NCBI RefSeq assembly: GCF_014196595.1
Contig: NZ_JACIEA010000002.1
Span: forward strand, 74,291 to 138,290
Direction: 5' to 3'
Length of the DNA: 64,000 nucleotides
DNA from: Sphingorhabdus rigui
Lineage (GTDB): Bacteria > Pseudomonadota > Alphaproteobacteria > Sphingomonadales > Sphingomonadaceae
Part shown: positions 27,638 to 33,011 of the stretch, one piece after another
How the letters are laid out: each line of letters starts with the position of its first letter
Numbering within the stretch: position 1 is the first letter of the stretch
Position numbers and translations under genes: made by a program
The notes under the pieces: generated by a model
Seen by the model: the letters and a program-made list of their open reading frames with translations, nothing else
The model's database searches: none
What the model was told of the DNA's origin: nothing

Positions 27638-29202
27638 TCGAACATCGCGCGCAACGCGGATATGGTGTCCGCCTCTTCAGCCGGTTTGTCCCTGCGTAAA
27701 CGCGAGATACGCGGGAAACGCATGGCCACACCTGATTTGTGCCGCTTGGATTCGTGCACCGCGTCAAACGCGACCTCAAGCACCAGCGACTTTTCCACTT
27801 CGCGGACCGGGCCAAAACGGGCGACGGTGTTATTGCGGACAAAGCGGTCGAGCCATTTCAGTTCTTCGTCGCTGAACCCGGAATAGGCCTTTCCAACCGG
27901 CAACAAATTGCCATCTTCGGTCCAGCAGCCAAAGGTGTAATCGGAATAATATGAGGATCGTTTTCCGCTGCCCCGTTGCGCATACATCATCACGCAGTCA
28001 GCCACGAGCGGTTCGCGTTTCCATTTGTACCACAAACCGACCTTACGCCCCGCCAGATAAAGCGAATCGCGCCGCTTGAGCATCACGCCTTCAATCGCCG
28101 CCTCACGTGCGGCCGCCCGGATTTCGGCCAGATGCTCAAAATCGCGCGCCGCGATGACCGCAGACAAATCGAAACGCGCAGGGTCAAGCTTCGCTGTGAA
28201 CAGTTCAAGCCTGTCGCGCCGCGCGGTCCATGGCTGACCGCGCAGATCTTCGGACCCATCGAACAATATGTCGTACAGGCGGACAAACACCGGATATTCC
28301 GCCTGCATGGCTGCGGTAACATTCTTGCGGCCCAGCCGTTGCTGCAACGCATTGAAGCTGGCGGCTTCGCCGCCCTGCACGTCGCCGCGCACCAGCAATT
28401 CGCCGTCGACCACGCCAATATTATTGAACGCCGCCGCTATTTCGGGGAACGACCCCGTCACTTCGTCACCGCCACGGCTGAATAGCCGCGTTTCGCCGCC
28501 GGTCGACGCAATCTGGATACGGATTCCGTCCCATTTCCACTCGGCGGCAAATTCATCAAGATGCACGCTGCCATCTTCAAGCGGGTGGGCGAGCATGAAG
28601 GGACGGAAAAAGGCGCTGTCGGCGGGGTCGGGCCGTTCGGTCCGCCCTTCGCCCCATACAAAAAGCTCGGTGTATGGCGGGCGAAGCGCGTGCCACACCT
28701 CCTCGACATCATCGACGGACACGCCAAAGGCTTGCCCGAAAGCGGTCTTGGCAAGACGCGCAGATATGCCAACCCGCATGCCGCCCGTTGCAAGCTTCAG
28801 CAGCGCATAGCGGCCATTGGCATCCAACCGGTCCATCAACTCCGCCAACACCGCCGGAGCGCGCGCGCGGCTGGTACTGTTCAGCAAGTCGATGACTTCG
28901 GACACGGTGGGCGCGGCATCGCCGCCGCTCTTGTCTGGCCACATCAGCGCGACAGTTTCGGCAGTATCGCCAACATAATCGCGGCTCATGCGGAACAGCA
29001 TGGGGTCGAAACGTTCCTCTGCCATCGCGCGAATGGCCGCCGATTTGACCGTGGCAATATTCAGCGTTCCGGCCAGTGCCGCCAAAGCCCAGCCGCGATC
29101 GGGGTCCGGTGTTATACGCAGATAATCCGCGATCAGCCGGATCTTCAAATCGCGCGACCGCGTGTAGATCAAGCCATCGATGAGCGCGGCAAATGCTTGC
29201 AT
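27634..29202 (-). CDS. ATP-dependent DNA ligase (ligase-associated repair cluster type)
   Basis: 522 residues from ATG 29202, overlapping the exonuclease stop by one base (TGATG); a longer open frame to 29274 runs back into that gene. N-terminal ligase domain (about 1-190), nucleotidyltransferase domain with the AMP-accepting lysine in EWKWDG (K about 223), and a C-terminal OB-fold. Seals nicks using ATP. This non-essential family travels with a metallo-beta-lactamase exonuclease, as here, and often with a helicase and a PdeM-type phosphoesterase; neither of those is in the window. Confidence 0.92.
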   Translation of the reverse strand: MQAFAALIDGLIYTRSRDLKIRLIADYLRITPDPDRGWALAALAGTLNIATVKSAAIRAMAEERFDPMLFRMSRDYVGDTAETVALMWPDKSGGDAAPTVSEVIDLLNSTSRARAPAVLAELMDRLDANGRYALLKLATGGMRVGISARLAKTAFGQAFGVSVDDVEEVWHALRPPYTELFVWGEGRTERPDPADSAFFRPFMLAHPLEDGSVHLDEFAAEWKWDGIRIQIASTGGETRLFSRGGDEVTGSFPEIAAAFNNIGVVDGELLVRGDVQGGEAASFNALQQRLGRKNVTAAMQAEYPVFVRLYDILFDGSEDLRGQPWTARRDRLELFTAKLDPARFDLSAVIAARDFEHLAEIRAAAREAAIEGVMLKRRDSLYLAGRKVGLWYKWKREPLVADCVMMYAQRGSGKRSSYYSDYTFGCWTEDGNLLPVGKAYSGFSDEELKWLDRFVRNNTVARFGPVREVEKSLVLEVAFDAVHESKRHKSGVAMRFPRISRLRRDKPAEEADTISALRAMFD

Positions 29203-30323
29203 CAGCCTTCGTCCTCGTCTTCGCGGCCAATCAGGTCCAGCGCGCGCGCCTTTAACTGATGCAGTTCGCACCACCGACCCAGCGCATCGGTGCGGCCATG
29301 GGTAATCCAGGTTTCTGACGGGCGCAGCTCAAGCAACGTATCGGTCAACTCGGTCCAGTCGGCATGGTCTGAAATGACCAAAGGCAGTTCGACATTGCGC
29401 TGTCGTGCGCGTTGGCGCACGCGCATCCACCCCGATGCCATGGCGGTTATGGGTTCGGGCAGGCGCTGTGCCCAACGGTCATTCATCGCAGACGGCGGCG
29501 CTATAACAATCGCGCCTTTCAATTCCGATTTGGCAAGGCCCGTTGCCATAATGAGGTCGCCCAGCGGCACATTGTGCGCGGCGTATAGGTCGCACATTTT
29601 CTGCATCGCGCCATGAATATAAATGGGGGCGTCGTATCCCGCCCTGCGCAGCTCAGCGATAACGCGCTGCGCCTTACCCAACGCATAAGCGCCCACAACA
29701 ATGCAGCCATCAACATTGGCGTCGCGGGCGGCAAGTAACTTAGCAATCTCGTCCTCAATCGGCGGATGCGTGAACACCGGAAGACCAAAGGTTGCTTCGG
29801 TAATCAAAACATCGCAGGCAACGGGCTCAAACGGGGTGCATGTCGGGTCAAAGCGACGCTTATAATCGCCGGTCACCACAACCCGCTCGCCAGCATGTTC
29901 AAGCAATATCTGCGCCGATCCAAGCACATGCCCAGCGGGGTGAAAGCTTATCTTCACGCCGCCATGTTCGAACCCGTCGCCATAAGGCACTGGCGTGCCC
30001 ATTTCGGTTCCATATCGCAGCGCCATGATCGCAAGCGTTTCAGGTGTCGCCCACACTGCGCCATGACCGCTGCGTGCATGGTCCGCATGGCCATGGGTGA
30101 CAAGCGCGCGTTCGGCAGGACGCGACGGATCAATCCACATGTCTGCAGGCTTCACATAAATGCCATGCGCGTGCGGCTCTATCCAATGTTGGGCGGCGGT
30201 TCGGGAGATGTCGGCTGTCCTTTTCGTAATCAGGATATGGGCAGTGGCAGGCGCGATGTAAACAGCATGTATCAGCGAAAGTTCATGGCGACCGGCGGCT
30301 AAGCCTGCCAACCGAACACGCAA
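29202..30323 (-). CDS. Ligase-associated metallo-beta-lactamase-fold exonuclease
   Basis: Up to 373 residues. Metal-binding HGHADHARSGH (about 77-87) and a beta-CASP-like C-terminal half. Matches the DNA-ligase-associated exonuclease family related to SNM1/Artemis nucleases. Start uncertain: no ATG or GTG occurs before YVKPADMW. Only TTG codons (30323, 30311) or rarer starts give the full domain, and none has a clear ribosome-binding site. Divergent from the radical-SAM gene; the LexA box lies 45 bases from this start. Confidence 0.88.
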   Translation of the reverse strand: MRVRLAGLAAGRHELSLIHAVYIAPATAHILITKRTADISRTAAQHWIEPHAHGIYVKPADMWIDPSRPAERALVTHGHADHARSGHGAVWATPETLAIMALRYGTEMGTPVPYGDGFEHGGVKISFHPAGHVLGSAQILLEHAGERVVVTGDYKRRFDPTCTPFEPVACDVLITEATFGLPVFTHPPIEDEIAKLLAARDANVDGCIVVGAYALGKAQRVIAELRRAGYDAPIYIHGAMQKMCDLYAAHNVPLGDLIMATGLAKSELKGAIVIAPPSAMNDRWAQRLPEPITAMASGWMRVRQRARQRNVELPLVISDHADWTELTDTLLELRPSETWITHGRTDALGRWCELHQLKARALDLIGREDEDEG

Positions 30324-30367
30324 TTAAAAACGATTTTGACCATTGCACATAGACACTGACATTTAAA

Positions 30368-30382
30368 GAACATATATAGAAC
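30368..30382. promoter_or_regulatory. LexA (SOS) box, alphaproteobacterial type
   Basis: GAAC (30368-30371), seven bases, GAAC (30379-30382). This is the reverse complement of the GTTC-N7-GTTC direct repeat bound by LexA in alphaproteobacteria. Both half-sites match exactly. It ends two bases before the radical-SAM ATG (30385) and about 45 bases from the divergent exonuclease start, so bound LexA would block at least the rightward genes and possibly both sides. Confidence 0.75.
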
Positions 30383-30384
30383 AA

Positions 30385-31626
30385 ATGTCCCAACTTCAGA
30401 TTTCAGAAAAGCTCGCGATTCTTGCCGACGCCGCAAAATATGATGCCTCCTGCGCGTCTTCGGGAACATCGAAACGGTCAAGCAGCAAATCGGGCGGCAT
30501 CGGATCGACCGAAGGCATGGGAATTTGCCATGCCTATGCGCCCGATGGCCGCTGCATTTCGCTGCTGAAAATTTTGCTGACCAACAGCTGTATTTTCGAC
30601 TGCCATTATTGCATCAATCGCAAGAGCTCGAACGTTCGCCGCGCGCGGTTTACGCCCAAAGAAGTGGTCGACCTCACGCTGAATTTTTATAAGCGGAATT
30701 ATATTGAGGGATTGTTCCTTTCGTCGGGGATCATCAAAAGCTCCAACTACACAATGGAGCAAATTGTCGAGGTCGCACGCAGCCTGCGCGAAGACCATGA
30801 CTTTCGCGGTTACATTCACCTCAAAACCATTCCCGATGCTGATCCCGAATTGCTGGAGGCAGCTGGACGTCATGCCGACCGGCTGTCGATCAACGTCGAA
30901 TTGCCGACGCGCGCTGGCCTGCAAAAGCTTGCGCCGGAAAAATCCGAAGAGCGGATTGAAGGCGCAATGGGGGGCCTGAAAGAATCGATCCTTGATGGTC
31001 GCGACGCGAAAAAGAAATACCGAAGCGCGCCCAACTTTGCACCAGCCGGCCAATCCACGCAGATGATCGTAGGCGCCGACAGCGCGACCGACAGCGATAT
31101 CGTAACGCGCGCCAACAGCCTTTATGACCGCTTTGGTTTGCGCCGTGTCTATTATTCGGCGTTCAGCCCAATCCCCGACGCCAGCGCCGTGTTGCCGCTG
31201 CAACGTCCACCGTTGATGCGCGAGCACCGGCTGTATCAATCGGACTGGCTGCTGCGTTTCTATGGCTTTGCCCCGCAGGAGGTTGTCGACGCAGCAGACG
31301 CCGATGGCATGCTGCCGCTCGATATTGATCCAAAACTCGCATGGGCGCTGAAGCATCGCGCGCACTTTCCATTGGATGTGAACAGCGCGCCAAAGGCCAT
31401 GTTATGGCGGGTTCCCGGGCTCGGGACGAAGGCAGTCGACGCGATTATTAAGGCACGGCGCTGGCGGCGGTTGCGGCTTGAGGATGTCGGCAGGCTTACT
31501 GTTTCCATCGCGAAAATCCGGCCATTCATCACCGCTGAAGGCTGGACCCCCGGTGCATTGACCGACATGGAGCATCTGCGCGCATCGGTTGCGCCCAAGG
31601 TGCACCAATTCGAGTTGTTTGCATGA
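30385..31626 (+). CDS. Putative DNA modification/repair radical-SAM protein
   Basis: 413 residues. Radical-SAM cluster motif C69-x3-C73-x2-C76 in NSCIFDCHYCINR and a TIM-barrel region up to about 300. Near the C-terminus a helix-hairpin-helix-like DVNSAPKAMLWRVPGLGTKAVDAI (about 333-356) suggests DNA binding. Matches the radical-SAM family known from its linkage to a uracil-DNA-glycosylase-like partner, here the next gene (ATGA overlap). The chemistry is unknown. The LexA box at its start points to DNA-damage induction. Confidence 0.88.
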   Translation: MSQLQISEKLAILADAAKYDASCASSGTSKRSSSKSGGIGSTEGMGICHAYAPDGRCISLLKILLTNSCIFDCHYCINRKSSNVRRARFTPKEVVDLTLNFYKRNYIEGLFLSSGIIKSSNYTMEQIVEVARSLREDHDFRGYIHLKTIPDADPELLEAAGRHADRLSINVELPTRAGLQKLAPEKSEERIEGAMGGLKESILDGRDAKKKYRSAPNFAPAGQSTQMIVGADSATDSDIVTRANSLYDRFGLRRVYYSAFSPIPDASAVLPLQRPPLMREHRLYQSDWLLRFYGFAPQEVVDAADADGMLPLDIDPKLAWALKHRAHFPLDVNSAPKAMLWRVPGLGTKAVDAIIKARRWRRLRLEDVGRLTVSIAKIRPFITAEGWTPGALTDMEHLRASVAPKVHQFELFA

Positions 31627-33011
31627 TTACCGCCCGGCTTGGGCATGAAGATGATTTCGACGGCTGGCGGGAACAATGCCGCGGCCTCTTACGTCTCGGC
31701 GCGCGTCCCGCGGACATTGTGTGGCAAATCGGCGAACAACGCACGGACCTGTTTGCAAATCCCGAAAGCAATATTGCGGCTGCACCCATCGGTGTTCCAA
31801 AGGGTTTTGCCGAATTGTCGCGTTCGGTCATCTGTCATTCCGACCCGGAACGTTTTGGCTTGCTGTATCAGCTGCTGATCGATCTGAAGGCGGGTAAGCG
31901 CCACATGGGCGACCGCGCAGATCCCTTGCTGCGCAAGCTTGACGTCATGGCCAAAACCGTGCGGCGGGACATCCACAAGATGCGCGCCTTCGTGCGCTTT
32001 CGCAGAATCGAGCAGGATGGTGACGAACATTTCGTCGCGTGGTTCGAACCCGAGCACCACATTGTCCGCGCCAACGCGTCATTCTTTGTGCGACGTTTTG
32101 CGGGCATGCGCTGGTCCATTTTAACACCGCAGTTGTCCATTCATTGGAACAAAGACAAATTGTTGGAGGGCCCCGCAGCGCAAAAGGACGATGCGCCCAC
32201 CGAAGACGCCATCGAGGAACAATGGAAAACCTATTATGGGTCAACCTTCAATCCCGCCCGCCTGAAGGTGAAGGCGATGTTGAAAGAAATGCCCAAGAAA
32301 TATTGGCACAATATGCCCGAGACGGCTTTGGTGTCAGAACTTATCCAGTCCGCCCGAAATCGCGAGCTGGCGATGATCGAAAAAGAGACCGCTGCCCCCG
32401 TTGCCGACACATTGCAGTCGCTGCGGGCAGAGGCGGCACGGTGTCGTCGCTGCCCCTTATCTGGTCCAGCCACCCAGATCGTTTTTGGCGATGGGCCTGA
32501 GCGCGCAAAGCTGATGTTTGTTGGCGAACAGCCAGGTGATCAGGAGGATATGCAGGGCCACCCCTTTGTTGGCCCCGCAGGACAGATATTCAACGCCGCG
32601 CTGCACGAGGCCGGAATTGACCGTGCGCAAGCGTACGTCACGAATGCGGTCAAACATTTCAAATTCAAGCAAGAGGGCCAACGCCGGATTCATGATCGCC
32701 CGAACGTCGGGGAGATCAACCATTGCCGATGGTGGCTGAAGCGCGAGATTGAGATGGTCCAGCCCGACCTGATCGTCGCACTCGGCGCTACGGCCGCGCG
32801 CAGCCTTACGGGCAAGAATGTGGCCATTAGCGCACGCCGGGGGGAAATGTTGGAGAGCATGGAAGGCGTGCCCGTTTTGATCACCATCCACCCGAGTTAT
32901 TTGCTGCGTCTGTCCGATGCCGAAGCGGCGGCCCGCGAACGCCGCAACTTCGTCGCGGACCTATCGCAAGCCCACGAAACTATCGGTGCCCGTCAGATGG
33001 CGTCGACGTAA
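31623..33011 (+). CDS. DUF4130 - UdgX-type uracil-DNA glycosylase fusion
   Basis: 462 residues in two parts. N-terminal DUF4130 (about 1-240; function unknown). C-terminal UDG superfamily domain (about 265-455) with Fe-S cysteines CRRC (274, 277), motif 1 GEQPGDQED (301-309), the UdgX loop RRIH (354-357) and motif HPSYLLR (423-429). In studied UdgX the loop histidine forms a covalent bond with the abasic DNA left after uracil removal. Coupled to the radical-SAM gene by ATGA. The DUF4130 fusion and pairing are known in this family; the joint function is not. Confidence 0.88.
   Translation: MITARLGHEDDFDGWREQCRGLLRLGARPADIVWQIGEQRTDLFANPESNIAAAPIGVPKGFAELSRSVICHSDPERFGLLYQLLIDLKAGKRHMGDRADPLLRKLDVMAKTVRRDIHKMRAFVRFRRIEQDGDEHFVAWFEPEHHIVRANASFFVRRFAGMRWSILTPQLSIHWNKDKLLEGPAAQKDDAPTEDAIEEQWKTYYGSTFNPARLKVKAMLKEMPKKYWHNMPETALVSELIQSARNRELAMIEKETAAPVADTLQSLRAEAARCRRCPLSGPATQIVFGDGPERAKLMFVGEQPGDQEDMQGHPFVGPAGQIFNAALHEAGIDRAQAYVTNAVKHFKFKQEGQRRIHDRPNVGEINHCRWWLKREIEMVQPDLIVALGATAARSLTGKNVAISARRGEMLESMEGVPVLITIHPSYLLRLSDAEAAARERRNFVADLSQAHETIGARQMAST

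Follow-up and report, generated by a model that had tools for sequence, protein, structure and literature searches.

An exact match to the LexA operator GTTC-N7-GTTC, reading GAACATATATAGAAC on the forward strand, lies at positions 30368–30382 of the 64-kb stretch of DNA analysed here (the window) and very probably serves as an operator for the rSAM-udgX operon only. The assignment is a prediction from the exact match and its conservation, and these sequence comparisons give strong support to regulation of rSAM-udgX by LexA. Only bases 30383–30384 separate the box from the ATG of the radical-SAM gene at 30385. The preliminary description had given the site as GAAC-N7-GAAC, the reverse complement of GTTC-N7-GTTC, two bases ahead of the radical-SAM start, and its sequence, coordinates and spacing are all correct.

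The first gene of the operon (rSAM; 30385–31626, forward strand) encodes a 413-residue radical-SAM protein that belongs to TIGR03916 (rSAM_link_UDG; 571 bits against a curated cut-off of 343.5) and contains the radical-SAM domain PF04055; we take COG4277 to be this same family. The second gene (udgX; 31623–33011, forward strand) overlaps the rSAM stop codon and encodes a 462-residue fusion of DUF4130 (TIGR03915; 209 bits, cut-off 112.25) and UdgX (TIGR03914; 308.6 bits, above the curated cut-off of 189.95 and so within the UdgX family), with matches to PF13566 and PF03167. An RRIH stretch, found by eye in UdgX, presumably has a role in the covalent capture of uracil-DNA.

The two GAAC half-sites appear to flank a −10 hexamer, and transcription probably starts at the ATG. 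With LexA in place here the −10 region would be covered, such that RNA polymerase could not open the DNA, and DNA damage would free the promoter through RecA-triggered self-cleavage of LexA. Derepression would yield a burst of both products, the radical-SAM protein and its partner the DUF4130-UdgX fusion, which presumably handle uracil or other modified bases; to our knowledge the biochemical job of this pair is unsettled. The divergently oriented exonuclease-ligase (exo-lig) operon is predicted to have its own promoter ~105 nt away, and the box is unlikely to repress it.

Conservation of the box and its exchange for another motif

Exact matches to the box are no more frequent than chance would allow, and an argument from motif counts alone was therefore rejected. 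The window contains two where 1.37 are expected, and the 2.47-Mb source genome contains 68 as compared with 85 for a reversed control pattern; 55 of the 68 fall within ORFs of at least 60 aa (a count that includes lexA, with its ORF extended upstream). Such frequencies are what one would expect of a short motif matched by chance in AT-rich sequence, but the relatives argue decisively otherwise. Of the 149 family genomes sampled, 100 (the source genome among them) encode a TIGR03916 protein scoring over the cut-off, and the footprint set of 100 loci takes the other 99 together with a partial gene from G116. At 98 of these loci an exact box is found no more than 150 bp upstream of the rSAM gene, compared with a mean of 0.39 boxed loci (maximum 3) when each upstream stretch was mononucleotide-shuffled 300 times. 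The chance explanation is already refuted by this conservation and is exceedingly improbable; the box is significant because of its position and conservation and not its bare count.

The family loci are also specific as to the form of the motif. Among spacers of 4–11 only 7 is enriched, with the others at zero to two loci each, and the reversed control pattern occurs at a single locus. The box is situated at exactly −17 in 81 of the 100 loci, is farther from the ATG in eight and is reversed in four, with both GAAC half-sites kept in these last two groups. The two boxless loci (L110 and L129) each have one damaged half-site. The preliminary description had held that absence of the site from close relatives with the same gene order would speak against it; seven of the nine other genus members with a full-length rSAM gene share that order, and all nine have the box. 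Its place, where the coding sequence of a repair gene begins, is kept in relatives.

The box extends well beyond the family, although all of these rows come from related genomes and are not independent events. A class sample contains 25 genomes (of 385) over the TIGR03916 cut-off, four of them from the same family and 21 from other alphaproteobacterial families; 20 of the 21 loci have an exact box, including a weak GGAAC repeat (L215), and L198 is the single locus lacking it. All 21 alphaproteobacterial loci of a phylum sample (L225–L245) have the box, three being from the same family and two of those already among the 100. It is also present in 78 of 80 named loci, which partly overlap the other sets and include Brevundimonas, Mesorhizobium, Rhizobium and Bosea; L336 and L394 are the two without an exact match.

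A different motif takes this place elsewhere in the Pseudomonadota. The phylum sample has 84 genomes (of 398) over the TIGR03916 cut-off, 29 of them from other classes, and 21 of the 29 were examined. The alphaproteobacterial box is found at none of these 21 loci, and CTGT-N8-ACAG, which we take to be the LexA box of those genomes, is found a short way upstream of rSAM in 16. No CTGT/ACAG pair with a spacer of 4–7 or 9–12 occurs at the 21 loci, and CTGT-N8-ACAG is absent from the 100 family loci. Five of the 21 lack an exact copy, one of them (L257) by a single mismatch, and L224 and L246–L248 have neither type of LexA box upstream of rSAM. Replacement of one box by the other suggests that control is kept and that the sequence recognised changes with the LexA of the lineage. 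Persistence of a LexA box before rSAM-udgX despite the changed motif argues that the pair matters specifically in the SOS response. Related forms of the E. coli and Pseudomonas LexA boxes are listed in PMC9578287. Two of the other-class loci, L247 and L248, share a palindrome-like TCTCATCCAATGAGA before the rSAM gene, which may be a terminator or an operator of some other kind.

Overlay of the probable operator on a putative promoter

The operator spacer seems to supply a leaderless promoter with its −10 element, the predicted transcript start being at or next to the ATG. The window has a putative −35 hexamer (TAGACA, 30350–30355, forward strand) followed after 17 bp by a putative −10 hexamer (TATATA, 30373–30378, forward strand) inside the spacer. 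When the window is aligned with the 81 relatives that share its box position of −17 (82 rows), T at −12 and A at −11 are invariant, and TATA occupies −12 to −9 in 57 rows. A second conserved block (C-T-T-G-n-C-like) is located 17 bp farther up at −36 to −31, with T.G at −35 to −33 in 72 of the 82. A generic sigma-70 promoter scan of 30150–30420, which demands a final T that is absent from TATATA, returned nothing. At the eight of 100 loci where the box is farther out, a short leader precedes the ATG, and six of the eight have a Shine-Dalgarno-like stretch as judged by eye; where the box is reversed (four of 100) a TATATC- or CTATG-like stretch follows it.

The overlap with the putative −10 and the position directly before the ATG in most rows would also be expected if the conserved GAAC-N7-GAAC were a core promoter or translation-start signature and not a repressor site. 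We consider this very unlikely. A Shine-Dalgarno GG is present in only 26 of the 82 rows, the box is moved or flipped relative to the ATG at 12 of 100 loci with both half-sites intact, and CTGT-N8-ACAG substitutes for it at 16 of 21 loci of other classes; the reversed and distant copies in particular show that the box is not a translation signal. For the favoured reading of the box as a LexA operator laid over a promoter, the overlay is kept across the family and, as judged by eye, beyond it, so that operator and core promoter would evolve as one unit; if this is true, the local LexA motif takes the place of the alphaproteobacterial box in the other classes. A broader proposal joins this overlay to the divergent operon, namely that the spacer is the −10 of a leaderless promoter and that an AUC/AUU start codon of the exonuclease gene is a translational brake replacing SOS control. 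We regard the chances of this combined proposal as evenly balanced.

The divergent exonuclease-ligase operon

The exonuclease gene (exo; 29202–30209, reverse strand) encodes a 335-residue ligase-associated exonuclease (TIGR04122; 449.5 bits, cut-off 325) and is followed by the gene for a 522-residue ATP-dependent DNA ligase (lig; TIGR04120; 27634–29202, reverse strand; 758 bits, cut-off 400), whose ATG at 29202, placed by inspection, overlaps the exo stop codon. The two thus resemble other TIGR04122/TIGR04120 pairs in being adjacent and both over cut-off, and differ in a start codon, AUC or AUU, that is conserved in the genus.

The exonuclease probably starts with AUC at 30209 (ATC at 30209–30207), 158 nt from the box. 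Comparison of 25 close genus loci, the window included and two divergent loci left out (L313, with its in-frame ATG, and L314, where the gene is in two pieces), shows ATC in 22 and ATT in three, 24 nt before a conserved Trp. A Shine-Dalgarno sequence (AAGGA, 30218–30222, reverse strand) lies 8 nt before the ATC and is kept as AAGGA in 24 of the 25 loci and as AGGAG in one. Substitutions at the three codon positions number 7/4/120 over 15 codons counted from the conserved Trp and 11/7/25 over codons 2–8. The 9 nt that precede ATC/ATT give 30/39/39 and show no codon rhythm. The start at 30209 is preferred because the ATC/ATT and the Shine-Dalgarno sequence are conserved and because the codon rhythm is present after this point and missing before it. 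An in-frame stop is situated six codons before the ATC/ATT in eight of the 25 loci. Three loci count against an AUC/AUU start in that a canonical start is available within ten codons upstream (an in-frame ATG two codons up in two, a TTG eight codons up in one). An internal candidate, the Met of PADMW, is ATG at all 25 loci and codon loss does not argue against it, but the stretch before it seems to be translated because substitutions there fall on third positions. TTG at 30323 was rejected as the start; the TIGR04122 match begins only at residue 47 of the resulting protein, and codon rhythm is absent upstream of the ATC/ATT. The interval of 45 bases that the preliminary description gave between the box and this operon relied on that TTG, and the probable gap is 158 nt.

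The genus comparison further suggests a promoter belonging to this operon, TTTACA-N17-CATATC (30234–30262, reverse strand). Eight of the 25 exo loci adjoin rSAM, and the rSAM box is then 73 to 182 nt away from the exo start codon. At the 17 without an adjacent rSAM gene there is no exact box within 400 bp, and the TTTACA is kept in 16 of them as judged by eye. Likewise, none of the 30 best-scoring of the 122 family exo loci over cut-off has a box within 400 bp upstream, and at these genus and family loci no box was seen upstream of exo independently of rSAM. The two units are separable, with the box going with rSAM. G137 has exo-lig beside an alpha-galactosidase gene 96% identical to that of the window, and the 7 kb examined there contains no box and no rSAM-udgX, and G884 has rSAM-udgX without any exo match.

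The preliminary description went further in proposing that a single operator makes all four genes inducible by DNA damage, one LexA dimer at the box repressing both divergent operons. The arrangement of the genes gives this some appeal. The divergent rSAM/exo order is present in the window and in seven of the nine other genus members with a full rSAM gene, although it occurs at none of the 100 family loci outside the genus (in flanks of 1.5–2 kb) and outside the genus at only one of the 80 named loci, L380 of Brevundimonas bullata (L318, the other divergent case among the 80, belongs to the genus). Box and exo start are only 73 nt apart in G888 and 101 nt apart in G916. By hand count, rSAM and exo are within ~20 kb of each other in nine of the 96 genomes having both over cut-off, the source genome included, which is more than random placement would give but comes from related genomes; a functional link between rSAM-udgX and exo-lig is plausible. 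Behind a boxed rSAM gene, G042 has udgX, exo and lig in a single operon. Against a shared operator are the distance of 158 nt to an exo start with its own putative promoter and Shine-Dalgarno sequence, the lack of boxes at the 17 genus and 30 family exo loci, and the occurrence of each unit alone in G137 and G884. Repression of all four genes from the one box in the window is accordingly unlikely, with perhaps a slim chance of being correct, and a common intergenic region does not by itself make the ligase-exonuclease pair a LexA target. The proposed LexA site thus stands for the rSAM-udgX operon, on the strength of 98/100 family loci, 20/21 loci of other families and the exchange at 16/21 loci of other classes, but not for the four genes together.

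The G042 arrangement (L181, L146) is of interest in its own right. The udgX stop and exo ATG overlap as TGATG and the rSAM box is at −33, and it looks like a natural four-gene LexA operon.

Known systems and other LexA boxes in the genome

The comparisons with published systems draw on parts of the papers cited. Gene context has tied DUF4130 to SplB-like radical-SAM enzymes and uracil-DNA glycosylases (PMC3765255), a radical-SAM protein is included in the Streptomyces LexA regulon (PMC9380542), and Caulobacter has four UDG-family genes (PMC1839093). PMC8565304 infers for Bacteroidetes that a putative UDG-based repair system, COG1573-COG4277, is under SOS control, and states that such control has been reported in Verrucomicrobia and Alphaproteobacteria (citing Erill 2016 and Paes da Rocha 2008). 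In that operon and in the window alike, an SOS repressor would govern a UDG-family gene together with its partner; the window differs in its GTTC-N7-GTTC operator, its DUF4130-UdgX fusion and its orientation divergent to exo-lig. Since SOS control of such a UDG/COG4277 pair has already been published (PMC8565304), the box is a further, well-supported case of a known regulon member. The Caulobacter LexA regulon (PMC12700426, PMC9578287) uses the same GTTCN7GTTC operator, and a single box, as here, is found in about 97% of its SOS promoters (PMC12700426); the window differs in having the putative −10 inside the box and a promoter that is probably leaderless.

A narrow search of open-licence literature found no paper linking LexA, UdgX and radical SAM by name, the regulation being described under COG numbers in PMC8565304, and none describing the operator-promoter overlay, the class motif exchange or the AUC/AUU start; for UdgX and SOS it gave two papers, with a single mention in each; a similarly narrow search on start codons and leaderless promoters gave no matching title. 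The fresh points are these same three, namely the overlay of operator and promoter, the exchange of LexA motifs between classes, and the exonuclease start that is AUC or AUU at 25 of 25 genus loci.

The source genome encodes one LexA (163 bits, cut-off 110.95), and two overlapping boxes at the start of its gene provide it with boxes of its own. Other boxes are located upstream of recA, ruvA, radA, rmuC and an MmcB-like gene, and the genomic sites as a whole look like a working regulon amid a background of chance matches; those near a di-heme enzyme gene (L015) and an oxidative-stress gene (L041) may belong to the latter. Identification of the L003 gene as imuA was dropped, there being no family match at the thresholds used.

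Several of the individual sites are closely associated with predicted gene starts. The radA/sms gene (L045, 1526–1540) and the RmuC-like gene (L037, 1516–1530) each have an exact box 15 bp before the predicted start, and the box at L027 (1501–1515; GTTCTTTATATGTTC) overlaps the start of the longest ORF of a second radical-SAM gene, of the PA0069 family. The box at L021 (1501–1515) is ~40 bp ahead of homology to a UvrD/PcrA-type helicase and 84 bp from a divergent symporter gene. At L050 (1451–1465), GTTCTATATTTGTTC lies 55 bp upstream of a Peptidase_S24 repressor-like gene, possibly encoding a second damage-responsive regulator.
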